Shown piece after piece: positions 9,236-42,493 of a stretch of DNA of 52,504 bases (the stretch's first letter is position 1; each line of letters starts with the position of its first letter). Made by a program: the position numbers and the translations under genes. Source of the stretch: Chloroflexota bacterium (lineage in GTDB: Bacteria; Chloroflexota; Anaerolineae; UBA4142; SHND01); NCBI GenBank assembly GCA_029778615.1, contig JAKOPZ010000293.1, forward strand, positions 1 to 52,504, given 5' to 3'. The notes under the pieces were generated by a model, which saw only the letters and a list, made by a program, of their open reading frames with translations, had not been told where the DNA came from and made no database searches.

Positions 9236-11302
9236 TTACTGCCCACTGATTTTCCACAACGCGCCTGCATCTGGAATTGCGGCATCTCCAAATAACGGAG
9301 CATCCAGCGTCGTCACGCGCTCTACGCGATATGTTTCGCGTATCTCATTCATGGCGCGCGCGAGGGACGCGTTGTCTTCTAGCAGATAAATTTCATAATT
9401 GTTTGTGCGCGCGATTGCGATAAATTCGCGCAGGTCGTCGTTTGACCAATCGGCGGGACGAAACGCGTTTCGATGCGAATACAATTCAAGCGCGCCGGAA
9501 TTGAGCGATGCCCCGATGATTGCGCGTTGTGGTGTTACGCGCGCAATTTCATCGAATGACGCGCGCTGTCGCTGCGTCATTGCGCCAAAACGCGCGGGCG
9601 CTTCGGAAAACGCGCGCGGCAGTGTATTCCACACGCGCGCGAGGTTGAATTCCAGCGCCAGAAAAATGAAACACGCCGCGCCGAATGCTGCCCACGCGCG
9701 TTGTCGTTTCCACAAAAGCGAAACTGCCGCCACAATTCCGTAACTCGCAAAAAACGCGATGATAGAAAATTGCGGAAGCAAGTCGCGCAAGCGTAACGCC
9801 GCATAGGGCAAATGAATCGCTAACGCTGCGCCGAGCCATAACAACAACGCGAGGCTCGAAATTTTTTCGCGGCGCGTGTAGAAAAAAATTCCCGCAATGA
9901 TAAAGAACGACAGCCAACCAAATTCTGAGCCGATGAACGCGCTCTGCCCTATCGCGCCAAGCGTTTGCGGAATCGCGTTCCACGAAAACAACGCGAGCTC
10001 TTCGGATTCGGGCGTGAGCCAATTGCCCAGATACAGTTGATGATACCACAAGTCAGGAAGCGCGATGAGAAACGCGGCACTGCCCATCACAATCAAATCG
10101 CGAAATTTTTGGATGCGCGTCGCATTTGAAAACAGAACGAAGGGGATGAACGCGAGCGCAACGACCAATTGCGTATGCCGCACGAAATACGCCATGCCCC
10201 AAAACACTCCCGCGCCGATTGCCCAGCCCCATGTGCTATGCTTGGCATTTCGAGCGGAGCGAGAAATCTCTCTTGGGATACGAGAGATTTCTCGCAAAGA
10301 CGGCTCGAAATGACGATTCTCAAGAGAGTGATTTTGACGATACGCGCGCAGCGCGCAGTAAAACGCGAGCGTCGAAAACACCAATGCCTGCGTGTCAACC
10401 ATCGTCACACCTGCCCAATTCACAATTTCGTTCGATGTGGCGATGAGGGCAAGAACGACCAAAGTCGTTATTACGCGCCGCGTCAGTTCCCACGCGAGCA
10501 GTCCTGAAACGAAAACACTTGCCAATGAAAAAAACGGATTGACGAAATATAACGCGTTCTCACCCGCGAGCCGATATGCCAGCGCATACGCGAACGCGCC
10601 GCCGATAGACCACACGGTAATTGCGTCGCCTTGCAAATTAAACGGCAAGCGATAGCCGACGTGAACAATTGGGTACCATGAGATTTGTGTTTGGGAGATG
10701 AGAGGAAATAGGGAAAAGGAATGACTCGCGGTTCCGCGCGTTGCCAAATCAATGCCCATTTGCACATACGCGAACGGGTCACTCCCGGTCGCACCAAACG
10801 TGCGGTGTCCAAAATATTCTGCGATCGCCCAAACAAAAATTGCGAGTGCGCCAAGAATTGCAACCCATTGAATTGCACGCGTGCGCGGCGGAAATAGCAA
10901 AGCGAAAAAAATCAACGCGCTGTACAGAATCCCCGCGCCGATGAAAAATTCGTACTGGAGCAGCACGCGCGCATCCGGCAGTGCGTAATCAAAATAGCCC
11001 TGAATCTCTTCGCCCAACAAACGGAGCCACGCAAAACGCAGCGCGACAAAAATATACACAATGAAAAATGGCGCGAGCAGCGCGGGCGAAAGGATTTCAC
11101 GCGCGCGCGGAAAAAGTTGTGCGAGAATACAAAGCCCCATGACGACGCCGACAATCCACAGCGGCGCGCGGGTGAGTTGCGTTAAGAGCGCGAGGGCGAG
11201 CGCGTGGACGAGGAGGAGAGCTAGAGAGATTGAGAGATTGAGCAAAGGCGGGGGAACAAGCGAGAGGGCGGAGAGGTGGTATGAGAGGAGGCGGGAAAAC
11301 AC
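9236..11302 (-). CDS. Large polytopic membrane protein, GT39/PMT-like glycosyltransferase fold
   Basis: The 688-residue protein has about 12-13 membrane helices over residues 1-560 and a soluble C-terminal part (about 570-688). The layout resembles lipid-linked-sugar glycosyltransferases of the GT-C superfamily (PMT/ArnT-like), which would act at the outer face of the membrane; no Asp-containing catalytic loop could be assigned with certainty. A palindromic repeat at 10246-10316 is read in frame and adds a polar segment (HFEPSLREISRIPREISRS) between two helices. The start at 11302 is the longest ORF and the first residues (MFSRLLSYHLSAL) may be spacer-derived. Confidence 0.65.
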   Translation of the reverse strand: MFSRLLSYHLSALSLVPPPLLNLSISLALLLVHALALALLTQLTRAPLWIVGVVMGLCILAQLFPRAREILSPALLAPFFIVYIFVALRFAWLRLLGEEIQGYFDYALPDARVLLQYEFFIGAGILYSALIFFALLFPPRTRAIQWVAILGALAIFVWAIAEYFGHRTFGATGSDPFAYVQMGIDLATRGTASHSFSLFPLISQTQISWYPIVHVGYRLPFNLQGDAITVWSIGGAFAYALAYRLAGENALYFVNPFFSLASVFVSGLLAWELTRRVITTLVVLALIATSNEIVNWAGVTMVDTQALVFSTLAFYCALRAYRQNHSLENRHFEPSLREISRIPREISRSARNAKHSTWGWAIGAGVFWGMAYFVRHTQLVVALAFIPFVLFSNATRIQKFRDLIVMGSAAFLIALPDLWYHQLYLGNWLTPESEELALFSWNAIPQTLGAIGQSAFIGSEFGWLSFFIIAGIFFYTRREKISSLALLLWLGAALAIHLPYAALRLRDLLPQFSIIAFFASYGIVAAVSLLWKRQRAWAAFGAACFIFLALEFNLARVWNTLPRAFSEAPARFGAMTQRQRASFDEIARVTPQRAIIGASLNSGALELYSHRNAFRPADWSNDDLREFIAIARTNNYEIYLLEDNASLARAMNEIRETYRVERVTTLDAPLFGDAAIPDAGALWKISGQ
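10246..10316. repeat. Dispersed palindromic repeat inserted in a coding sequence
   Basis: catttcgagcggagcgagaa is matched on the far side by gatttctcgcaaagacgg and ctcgaaatgacg. It belongs to the family of 32-124 and 213-327 but lies wholly inside the membrane protein gene 9236-11302, in frame and without a stop codon. Confidence 0.8.
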
Positions 11303-14756: not shown

Positions 14757-15068
14757 TCACGCAAAATAACTTTCGCCTTCCGGCAATTCCAACTCTACAT
14801 TCTCAATCGCGTCCGCTGTTTCGACAATTCCCACAATCGCCAAATCAACAGGACCCACAACAGGATACGTTGCTAACGCGGCTTCACGCGCGCGGACGAG
14901 AAAAACGAAATCATTTTGTCCCGCATCCACCACATCAATCGCCGCTTGCGGGCGCCCTATTTTTTCGCGCTTGCGATTCATTAGTTGCACGAGCAACAAT
15001 TTTTCGCCCGCGAGCTGTTCGTCTTTGACGGTGGCGACGACGGTGCCGACGACTTGACCTAAAATCAT
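14757..15068 (-). CDS. BMC-P shell vertex protein (EutN/CcmL family), copy 2
   Basis: The 103-residue protein starts MILGQVVGTVVATVKDEQL and keeps AIDVVDAGQNDFVFLV and a C-terminal DLAIVGIVETAD strand. It is longer than the other copies, with an acidic C-terminal tail (ENVELELPEGESYFA). Its predicted role is a pentameric vertex cap. It is separated from the third copy only by the DUF433/DUF5615 pair. Confidence 0.92.
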   Translation of the reverse strand: MILGQVVGTVVATVKDEQLAGEKLLLVQLMNRKREKIGRPQAAIDVVDAGQNDFVFLVRAREAALATYPVVGPVDLAIVGIVETADAIENVELELPEGESYFA

Positions 15069-19013: not shown

Positions 19014-19020
19014 AAACGGA

Positions 19021-19101
19021 TTAGAGACTGGAGACTGGAGATTAGAGATTCCTCACTCCGTTCGGAATGACATTTTTCTAATCTCTAATCTCTAGTCTCT
19101 A
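19021..19101. repeat. Inverted spacer repeat (GAGACTGGA words)
   Basis: The left arm ttagagactggagactggag, then attagagatt, is inverted in taatctctaatctctagtct (ending 19101). The loop contains a fragment ttcggaatgacatt of the dispersed palindromic family. Confidence 0.8.
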
Positions 19102-19572
19102 ATTCTTGGTATCGAGCATCCAATCCGCGAGAACATTTCGGTCAACCAACTTGCAACCGTTTGAACGCGCGAGTTCTTGCGCGCCGGGCGAAAATAAATT
19201 ATTCGTGACAACCATTGCGGCGTTGCATTTGTAATGCGCTTTGCCGGCGACGGCATCGCTGACCGCGCTGCGTGAAACGGGATTGCTTAAGCGTTTCACC
19301 TGCACCGCGAATTTGTAGGGCGCTTTTTCCGCAATCAAATCCACGCCCAAATCGCCCGCCTTGCCCGTATGGGTCACGCGATAGCCGCGTTTTTTCAACA
19401 ATGCCTCGACGTATGCTTCAAATGCCGCGCCGTCGAGTGAATCAATCGCGCTGTGCTGCAAGGCGTTCGCGCGTCGGGAGACCAGCCACCGATTCCAAAA
19501 ATACAAATAAATCGCGAGAAACAACAACCCCGCGCCCAGCGCGAGTATAACACTGATTGGGTCAATGAACAT
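19099..19572 (-). CDS. Membrane-anchored Mrr-like restriction endonuclease-fold protein
   Basis: The 157-residue protein has one N-terminal membrane helix (ISVILALGAGLLFLAIYLYF), then a restriction-endonuclease-like Mrr_cat domain with the D-(x)n-QVKR active site: AGDLGVDLIAEKAPYKFAVQ followed by VKR. This fold commonly cleaves DNA, often modified DNA. The membrane anchor suggests a role at the cell surface such as incoming DNA; that is an inference. The ATG at 19572 fits the helix start; residues upstream in the longer ORF are spacer repeat. Confidence 0.82.
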   Translation of the reverse strand: MFIDPISVILALGAGLLFLAIYLYFWNRWLVSRRANALQHSAIDSLDGAAFEAYVEALLKKRGYRVTHTGKAGDLGVDLIAEKAPYKFAVQVKRLSNPVSRSAVSDAVAGKAHYKCNAAMVVTNNLFSPGAQELARSNGCKLVDRNVLADWMLDTKN

Positions 19573-20676: not shown

Positions 20677-20688
20677 GTTTTTAGGATT

Positions 20689-20755
20689 GTCATTTCGAGC
20701 GGAGCGAGAAATCTCATTTCTGACGGATGAGATTTCTCACGTTGTTCGAAATGAC
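20689..20755. repeat. Dispersed palindromic repeat (67-bp copy)
   Basis: gtcatttcgagcggagcgag is inverted in the right end ctcacgttgttcgaaatgac, with inner arms aaatctcat and atgagattt. It lies between the MazG-like and DinB genes. Confidence 0.85.
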
Positions 20756-20763
20756 AAGCTAGT

Positions 20764-23398: not shown

Positions 23399-23526
23399 AT
23401 TCACCTTACGCATGTCATTTCGAACCCCTCAATCCTTCGGGGTAAACTCTGTGAGAAATCTCAGTTTTTTCCACCGAGATTTCTCGCAAGACCGCTCGAA
23501 ATGACAATTCTGCGTAACATGAGTTA
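23399..23526. repeat. 128-bp dispersed palindromic element, copy 1
   Basis: The outer inverted ends are ttacgca (23406-23412) and tgcgtaa (23511-23517), then tgtcatttcga and tcgaaatgac. The inner arms are gagaaatctcag and gagatttctc. It matches 42366-42493 over 128 bp with one substitution (T to C in the central T-run). Confidence 0.9.
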
Positions 23527-31650: not shown

Positions 31651-32541
31651 CTACTTGTTCTGTTCTTGCTCCATCAATTTCAATTTAATACCGCTCGCCT
31701 GATGTTTCAGCATGCGTTTGATATATTCTACCACGTACGCGCCCGCTTCAAGCGGATTTGTGCCACCGTTAAAAATATTGCACACCACGTCGCGGTCGGC
31801 GTCCGTCGAATCGGGCTGCGGCTTGTAACCCATATATGCGCTCATCGCTTCCGCGCGTCCAAGTCCAGGGCGTTCGCCAATTAGAGTGACAACGACTTTT
31901 GCATCCACGACGGAATTGACATCGTTCAACAATCCAACGCGTCCATATTTTACATAGAACGGCGTGCCCATTTTTAGACCCGCTTGCGCGAGCCCCTGTT
32001 GAATCACAGGAAAAATGTCGCGCAAATTATGTTCAATCGCGGCGGCGGAAAGTCCATCCGAAACGTACACTTGGACATCGGGCTGTTTGATACATTTTTC
32101 CTGCAATGTTTTGCGCGCGGCGTCGGAAAGTTTTCTGCCCAAGTCGGGACGCAAAAGATATTCTTGACGATTGCTCGCTTGTGTCTGCACCTCGAACAGA
32201 TTGAACTGTTGTAACAGCGTGGGGTCAATTTCTTTGAACAGCGCGTCTTGCGTGACCGCGTGGTCTGCCCAAAAAATAAATTGCGGAATGTTGCGATAGC
32301 GCGGACCCGCGTGTCCGATGCCAATGCGCGCGGGCGTCGTCTGCATCAACGCGCGCAGCACATCGGGCTTGCGAACGTTTTCGACGTACGAACGCGTACG
32401 ATATTCCGACGCGGTGATGTCGGGGAGGTCGAGATTGATGGTAGGGGTGTTCAATTGAACGCCCCTACCATCAATACCTTGCCGTTTCAATTCCGCGACG
32501 ACGGCATCAATGATGGATTCGATTTGTTGTTGTGTAATCAT
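31651..32541 (-). CDS. eutC: Ethanolamine ammonia-lyase small subunit EutC
   Basis: With EutB this forms the adenosylcobalamin-dependent lyase that converts ethanolamine to acetaldehyde and ammonia. The 296-residue protein has an N-terminal encapsulation helix (MITQQQIESIIDAVVAELKR, residues 1-20), a short linker, then the catalytic domain (TTPARIGIGHAGPRYRN, YLLRPDLGRKLSDAA, VQVYVSDGLSAAAIEHN, VVVTLIGERPGLGRAEAMSA). The linker residues IDGRGVQLNTPTIN are encoded by a 42-bp near-perfect palindrome at 32434-32475. It is coupled upstream by ATGA overlap to a DinB gene. Confidence 0.97.
   Translation of the reverse strand: MITQQQIESIIDAVVAELKRQGIDGRGVQLNTPTINLDLPDITASEYRTRSYVENVRKPDVLRALMQTTPARIGIGHAGPRYRNIPQFIFWADHAVTQDALFKEIDPTLLQQFNLFEVQTQASNRQEYLLRPDLGRKLSDAARKTLQEKCIKQPDVQVYVSDGLSAAAIEHNLRDIFPVIQQGLAQAGLKMGTPFYVKYGRVGLLNDVNSVVDAKVVVTLIGERPGLGRAEAMSAYMGYKPQPDSTDADRDVVCNIFNGGTNPLEAGAYVVEYIKRMLKHQASGIKLKLMEQEQNK
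32434..32475. repeat. 42-bp palindrome inside eutC linker
   Basis: attgatggtaggggtgttca on the left matches, with one G-T wobble, tgaacgcccctaccatcaat on the right; the centre is caattg. It is exactly 14 codons long and in frame, and it encodes the linker between the EutC targeting helix and the catalytic domain. Confidence 0.9.
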
Positions 32542-35801: not shown

Positions 35802-36779
35802 CTACCTTTCGAGGGGAACAATACTCCGTTTTTTCTTGCGCGGCATTTTCATTTTTTCGGTTTGAAAAACATATTCCACCACGCGGTCCGTTTCCGTTGT
35901 GAAACCCACGTGCTTGCCATTCGCATCCACCGCGACCAAATTCATACCCGGCGGAAAGGGAACGGTGAGCGCGCGCAAATCTTGCATCGCTTCACGCGCG
36001 GCGCGTTGGAGCGTCATGCCCATTTTCAAATACAATACAACGGAATGTGCAGTGTTCGCGCGCATCGCCATTTCGCCATACCCCGTGCACGCGCACGCGC
36101 CGTAACGATTATCACAATAATTGCCCGCGCCGATAATGGGAGAATCGCCGACGCGTCCCGGATATTTCCACGCCCAGCCGCTTGTGCTGACGCCGCTCGC
36201 CAAATTCCCGCGCAGGTCAATCGCAATCACGTTCGTCGTCCCGTGCGGCGGCGAGTGGTCGTTTGTCTTTGACAAACGACCACTCGATTCATCACCATAC
36301 TCGTCGTTGCTCGCGGCGATTTCGGGGTCATGCGTTGCGCGTGAAACCAATTCGCGCAAGATATTGTAACGCGGGTAATCGCTCACTTTGTTTTCGTAAA
36401 TGGCGCGCGCGGCGTCGGTCAATAAATTTTTCTTTTTCATGCCGAGTTCGCGCGCAAAACGTTCCGCGCCCGCGCCGGCAAGCATCACGTGCGGCAAGCG
36501 TTCCATCACTTGGCGCGCAATCGAAATCGGATGCTCGAAATTTTTCACCGCGCACACCGCGCCTGCCGCACGCGTTTTGCCATCCATAATGCTCGCGTCC
36601 AATTCCACTTGACCGAGAATGTTGGGCAAGCCGCTGTACCCGACGCTGTGGTCTTCGGGGTTCGATTCGACCAAACGAATCACCGCTTCCACCGCGTCCA
36701 GCGCGCTGCCGCCCGCGCGCAAAATTTCCATTCCGGTGGCGAAACCAAGTTCCGCGTTCGTTGAGGCGACGAGAAGCAT
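35802..36779 (-). CDS. N-terminal-nucleophile asparaginase (T2 family, glycosylasparaginase/isoaspartyl peptidase-like)
   Basis: The 325-residue precursor of the T2 family has GMEILRAGGSALDAVEAVIR near residue 16 and HSVGYSGLPNILGQVELDAS near 43, then the autoprocessing site HGTTNVIAID near 178 (Thr nucleophile after HG), followed by the oxyanion region NLASGVSTSGWAWKYPGRVG. It should cleave itself into alpha and beta chains and hydrolyse an asparagine-linked amide. A 35-bp palindrome (36252-36286) encodes about 12 residues (SSGRLSKTNDHSP) just upstream of the processing site. Located in the eut operon; relevance to ethanolamine use is unknown. Confidence 0.85.
   Translation of the reverse strand: MLLVASTNAELGFATGMEILRAGGSALDAVEAVIRLVESNPEDHSVGYSGLPNILGQVELDASIMDGKTRAAGAVCAVKNFEHPISIARQVMERLPHVMLAGAGAERFARELGMKKKNLLTDAARAIYENKVSDYPRYNILRELVSRATHDPEIAASNDEYGDESSGRLSKTNDHSPPHGTTNVIAIDLRGNLASGVSTSGWAWKYPGRVGDSPIIGAGNYCDNRYGACACTGYGEMAMRANTAHSVVLYLKMGMTLQRAAREAMQDLRALTVPFPPGMNLVAVDANGKHVGFTTETDRVVEYVFQTEKMKMPRKKKRSIVPLER
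36252..36286. repeat. Perfect 16-bp hairpin inside the asparaginase gene
   Basis: cgagtggtcgtttgtc (36252-36267), loop ttt, then gacaaacgaccactcg (36271-36286): every stem position pairs. It is in frame within the gene and ends two codons before the HGTT processing site. Confidence 0.9.
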
Positions 36780-41676: not shown

Positions 41677-41722
41677 ATGCTTGGAATTCGGATTCTCAAA
41701 AGAGAATCCGAATTCCAAGCAT
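41677..41722. terminator. 21-bp perfect hairpin at lysE/phosphodiesterase junction
   Basis: atgcttggaattcggattct (41677-41696, stem to 41697) pairs at all 21 positions with 41702-41722, loop aaaa. It contains the lysE stop and may terminate or protect its transcript. Confidence 0.75.
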
Positions 41723-42365: not shown

Positions 42366-42493
42366 ATTCACCTTACGCATGTCATTTCGAACCCCTCAAT
42401 CCTTCGGGGTAAACTCTGTGAGAAATCTCAGTTTTTCCCACCGAGATTTCTCGCAAGACCGCTCGAAATGACAATTCTGCGTAACATGAGTTA
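42366..42493. repeat. 128-bp dispersed palindromic element, copy 2
   Basis: Differs from 23399-23526 at one base. It has the same nested inverted ends ttacgca/tgcgtaa and tgtcatttcga/tcgaaatgac. It lies between the ABC ATPase and lysE genes. Confidence 0.9.

Follow-up and report, generated by a model that had tools for sequence, protein, structure and literature searches.

The stretch of DNA analysed here (the window, 52,504 nucleotides) encodes an ethanolamine ammonia-lyase light chain, EutC, in which a 42-bp palindrome encodes most of the linker that joins the N-terminal helix to the catalytic domain. This palindrome very probably represents a double-foot REP (a 28-bp GTAG...CTAC repeat of the RAYT group-4 kind) that was kept in a tolerant linker. 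A mobile-repeat origin is well supported, because the core is dispersed, a RAYT gene is flanked and entered by it in a congener, and the arrangement is that published for double-foot REPs. The features are as follows.

31651 to 32541, minus strand: eutC, ethanolamine ammonia-lyase light chain, ORF of 296 amino acids (Pfam EutC, 2.4e-78)
32476 to 32541, minus strand: EutC codons 1-22, N-terminal segment, conserved in four congeners
32434 to 32475, no strand assigned: complete palindrome (two 21-nt arms), coding for EutC residues 23-36
32441 to 32468, no strand assigned: core of the dispersed double-foot REP (28 bp, GTAG...CTAC); a single base separates it from the commonest copy

The arms of the palindrome (32434-32454 and 32455-32475) are 21 nt each, have no spacer between them and are 95% complementary. 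With arms of 21 nt, a spacer of 0 and at most one mismatch, 32434-32475 is the sole instance within the window, and 40 random sequences with the window's dinucleotide make-up held no such palindrome, the longest such arm being 14. A first-pass annotation, made from the sequence alone, had described a 42-bp palindrome of exactly 14 codons, in frame at the boundary of helix and catalytic domain; arm complementarity and the random controls confirm this description, and the residues encoded (23-36 of EutC) are IDGRGVQLNTPTIN. The single imperfect pair (32448/32461), which the annotation had called a wobble, is indeed T-G on the plus strand, but in the mRNA it is an A-C mismatch, and RNA folding leaves this pair open. 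The random-sequence controls rule out a chance origin of the palindrome. Assembly artefact or chance together carry a negligible probability: the window does come from a draft genome (G000, 6.0 Mb in 372 contigs), but the random sequences yielded nothing comparable, further copies of the core are found on different contigs and in a second genome, and EutC reads as an open frame free of stop codons.

Close to eutC lie genes for EutB, EutA, an aldehyde dehydrogenase and a BMC-domain protein, and a microcompartment context is therefore likely; codons 1-22 we take to be the microcompartment-targeting helix. Among 60 relatives, EutC was detected at E <= 0.001 in five genomes, namely our own and four congeners, and 19 of 400 genomes in a sample of the phylum gave a match. 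Our EutC shares 91, 88, 86 and 82% identity with its counterparts in the congeners, but the linkers are unrelated in sequence. Linker lengths are 14 residues in our genome, the shortest of the five, and 20, 21, 18 and 17 in G003, G004, G001 and G005, respectively; in six class-level outgroups, for which a slightly different anchor was used, they are 19-50 residues. An AlphaFold model from the five-row EutC alignment had a mean pLDDT of 33.4 and was set aside; the linker is probably flexible, judging by its sequence variability alone.

The EutC linker of G001 belongs to a second repeat family, with 22 other places in G001 at E < 0.001, some of them in tandem, and the G003 linker is a diverged member of the same family, which has three other such places in G003. 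This family also forms a hairpin (CCCCCTTCCC / GGGAAGGGGG), and its only trace in our own genome is a 16-bp match. The linkers of G004 and G005 gave strong matches to themselves only, so that a repeat-derived EutC linker is found in three of the five species, from two families. The G003 linker is 79% identical to the G001 linker (63 aligned positions) and 83% identical to a genomic copy in G003 (42 positions), and with the linker excluded, the identities of the congener EutC to our own gene are 86.0, 84.8, 83.3 and 76.8%, giving nearly star-like distances; the second repeat in G001 and G003 may be of either shared or separate origin. This position in EutC is clearly open to foreign sequence.

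A role for the hairpin in the mRNA of the eut operon, for example ribosome pausing or an adjustment of EutC output relative to EutB, could also have kept the palindrome, the peptide being incidental. In the mRNA the hairpin folds at -46.9 kcal/mol, compared with a mean of -22.1 for shuffled sequences (z -8.1), which makes it very stable, and the G001 linker is a hairpin-forming repeat as well, but the linkers of G004 and G005 are not such repeats, the A-C mismatch is unrepaired in the mRNA, and the same 28-mer is found in unrelated genes and between genes. We consider this explanation very unlikely. A conserved functional hairpin at the EutC linker was rejected, as it is not kept in congeners.

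The first-pass annotation had proposed that EutC orthologues lacking about 14 residues at this point would prove an insertion. No such empty site was found in the four congeners or the six outgroups, and the congener linkers are 3-7 residues longer. The observation that it held to count against an insertion, the same residues conserved in distant EutC over non-palindromic DNA, was not seen among the EutC compared. Its view of a repeat element at a permissive linker is supported as regards the repeat, the core being dispersed and also flanking and entering a congener RAYT; a clean 14-residue insertion lacks support, as the linkers of the relatives are longer and different.

Searching the genome for the palindrome word, as the annotation had suggested, revealed that the core is dispersed, with four further copies in our genome and three in the congener G005. 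A loose pattern (GTAGGGGN{2,30}CCCCTAC) was found at 10 places in our genome, compared with one for the reversed pattern used as control. A stricter pattern gave 8 matches in G000, 1 in G001, none in G002, 11 in G003, 2 in G004 and 4 in G005, and none with the controls throughout. Several dispersed copies in the genome, as required of a double-foot REP, are therefore present (10 against 1; 8 against 0). The core repeat has the 28-bp consensus GTAGGGG(C/T)GTTCAATTGAACGCCCCTAC; the four other copies in our genome are exactly GTAGGGGCGTTCAATTGAACGCCCCTAC, from which the EutC copy differs by one base, the exact 28-mer occurs in three of the four strict-pattern copies of G005, and the copies of G003 have different centres. 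At eutC the core is GTAGGGGTGTTCAATTGAACGCCCCTAC, with GT[AG]G at the 5' end and the complement C[TC]AC at the 3' end of one hairpin. Only one frame of the 28-bp core is free of stop codons; it reads xRGVQLNxPT, identically on both strands.

We scored complementarity of the flanks beyond the 28-bp core at the pattern-found copies (30 rows, 29 of them scored, as L009 ends at a contig edge; L144 at 1527 is a duplicate, so that 28 distinct copies remain, including the composite one within the G005 RAYT). Flank complementarity is 0-2 bp in all 28 except the EutC copy, where it extends for 7 bp, a length of at least 7 bp being reached at about 0.03% of random sites. Since the flanks outside the EutC copy pair over 0-2 bp only, 28 bp is the common repeat unit. 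Three copies with changed cores found by BLAST (L137, L138 and L139) lie outside this test; L137 and L139, judged by eye, have complementary flanks too, which weakens the statement that the EutC copy alone has extended flanks, and outward growth of the hairpin beyond the core may not be unique to EutC.

The palindrome could instead be non-mobile and have arisen at this site through quasi-palindrome correction, a fold-back copying of the linker's DNA. This would fit the 7 bp of complementarity past the core, seen in 1 of the 28 distinct copies, and the right arm of the copy in the G003 prolyl-tRNA synthetase gene, which matches the palindrome-free G000 gene at 12 of 14 bases. With one base changed, however, the EutC core matches four other places in its own genome and three in a congener, and an independent origin of such a sequence is not credible, making fold-back as the sole source extremely improbable. 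Within the double-foot REP reading, fold-back copying could explain the outer 7 bp at EutC.

Palindromes adjoining RAYT genes were also seen to have a GTAG...CTAC core with a complementary extension of 5-10 bp outward that varies from copy to copy (compare 7 bp at EutC), and these hairpins may have grown outward by fold-back copying.

L033, 1417-1457 and 2215-2261: outward-extended palindromes beside a RAYT gene
L034, 1095-1137 and 1785-1823: outward-extended palindromes beside a RAYT gene
L129, 1450-1497: outward-extended palindrome beside a RAYT gene

Y1 transposase domains are present in all six genus genomes. On contig C137 of G005, a RAYT ORF of about 216 amino acids carries the exact 28-mer at each end (576-603 and 1233-1260 of locus L046); the repeat is also present in frame in the loop that follows the NHIH motif of the protein, between the HuH and Y motifs. 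The protein matched the NCBIfam model REP_Tyr_transpos (NF047646) at 1.6e-14 with 54 bits, under the cut-off of 80, in a match split by the insert, and had no match in Pfam at 0.001. Its motifs NHIH, WQ and YIFNNP agree with those given for subclass 2.4 (NH[IFV]H, WQ and YIxNNP) in a table of PMC6006769. A repeat flanking a RAYT gene is thus seen at both ends of the G005 gene; in our own genome a truncated RAYT carries the 28-mer once, at the same loop position, and no intact RAYT of matching type was found in this possibly incomplete draft. The RAYTs of G004, G001 and G000 carry or adjoin GTAGAGACG-type palindromes. Of two of these RAYT genes, L132 and L128, the latter has an additional 33 nt, cleanly inserted in frame, that hold a related palindrome; in our data this pair is the best direct evidence that such hairpins insert with the frame kept. 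A RAYT presumably moved the hairpin to eutC.

The first-pass annotation had likened the eutC palindrome to the palindromic elements of Rickettsia, repeats that are translated as in-frame parts of proteins. The comparison is fair as an analogy: the two are alike in effect, an in-frame palindromic repeat, and differ in lineage and presumably in sequence. The Rickettsia elements are mentioned in section 15 of Di Nocera et al. 2013 (PMC3733652), and the parts of that paper compared here describe short GTAG-tagged palindromes lying in frame in many genes, suggest that linkers and loops are tolerant, and report different REPs at about the same recB site in two Xanthomonas species. The eutC copy resembles these intragenic REPs as a short GTAG-tagged palindrome in frame at a tolerant linker. 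In the families described there, however, GTAG is unpaired at one end, whereas at eutC it pairs with CTAC, so the copy is not a classical GTAG REP; and at eutC two unrelated repeat families fill one linker in different species. The closer likeness is to TnpA-REP subclass 2.4 (the same as RAYT group 4), for which the passages compared of Quentin et al. 2018 (PMC6006769) describe 'double foot' REPs as well as REPs read in frame within the transposase gene, in the stretch from HuH to Y. In both systems GTAG and its complement CTAC form the two ends of the repeat, the repeats flank the RAYT gene and lie in frame inside it, and the transposase motifs agree (here in the G005 protein). The present copy differs from the subclass 2.4 examples in lying in a metabolic gene, eutC, and neither gene nor genus is named in those passages. 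Intragenic REPs in linkers (PMC3733652) and in-frame REPs in subclass 2.4 RAYTs (PMC6006769) are, on the parts of these papers compared, already known. No published REP in EutC was found in searches that did not query EutC and REP jointly and stopped short of supplements, which is weak evidence of absence. The present case adds an enzyme-subunit linker apparently built from a mobile-type hairpin that is tied in a congener to a particular transposase type, and is relevant to the question of how selfish repeats turn into coding sequence in lineages other than Rickettsia.

The repeat sits in unrelated genes and in intergenic places. ORFs reading through it were sought at 21 copies (10 of G000 by the loose pattern and 11 of G003 by the strict one), and at least seven of these lie in frame within family-supported genes. 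Seven is a minimum, because the family scans covered part of the ORFs (EutC, L003, L008, L010, L042, L045, L142, L144 and L146); L003 and L142 gave no family in these scans and were left out.

G000, in-frame copies: EutC; nSTAND1 NTPase; RAYT remnant
G003, in-frame copies: prolyl-tRNA synthetase; glutamate-synthase-type GXGXG protein; amine-oxidase-like protein; HemC-HemD junction

The RAYT copy is placed in the variable loop of the protein. In the G003 prolyl-tRNA synthetase the repeat stands immediately ahead of the editing domain, and the protein is one residue longer than its orthologues and no more. HemC and HemD of G003 form a single ORF (L146, 722-2494) with the REP where the two enzymes meet; in G001 (L153) they are likewise one ORF, with a longer and different linker, and no clean empty site was found at this junction. 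The related genomes thus allow the entry of the repeat to be compared gene by gene, in EutC, prolyl-tRNA synthetase, HemC-HemD and the RAYT loop.

A double-foot REP copy would, in the reading we prefer, have come to lie in the linker that follows the N-terminal helix of EutC, be read in the core's sole stop-free frame, and have been retained because this linker tolerates almost any sequence. Selection would then merely filter the frame and place of copies, and EutC with the palindrome-coded linker presumably still works. As aligned with its congeners, the palindrome occupies the place of the linker instead of adding to it. Insertion of the 28 bp alone would shift the reading frame, and bases were therefore gained or lost around the core or an existing linker was overwritten; the route at EutC may have been either insertion with later loss of the old linker or replacement in one step. 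In the G003 prolyl-tRNA synthetase, the gain of a single residue and the match of the right arm to the G000 gene point to overwriting, and the L132/L128 pair of RAYT loops points to plain insertion. We suggest, as a speculation that is rather unlikely to hold, that mobile hairpins in this genus renew protein linkers by replacement, a copy of a REP or another hairpin repeat overwriting a similar length of the linker between two domains, with short matches or fold-back copying as the guide. If so, linkers such as that of EutC would turn over from species to species through the exchange of one whole repeat module for another.

The window holds further inverted repeats. A second perfect palindrome, at 36252-36286, has arms of 16 nt around a 3-nt spacer. 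It is read in frame within an Asparaginase_2 gene on the minus strand (35802-36779), where it codes for SSGRLSKTNDHS shortly before the HGTT stretch, at a site that we take to be the usual linker ahead of the catalytic threonine. A perfect inverted repeat at 41677-41722, where two minus-strand ORFs meet, has 21-nt arms and a spacer of 4 nt and is possibly a terminator or another repeat. Inverted repeats of the GAGAAATCTC type occur at least five times in the window (20687-20757, 10242-10293, 229-315, 23426-23489 and 42393-42456), and one also adjoins the nSTAND1 gene in L010. Short TAGAGACTGGAGA-type repeats are scattered in the window, at 19020-19103 and also, for example, at 15068, 12466, 9182, 13822 and 40310.
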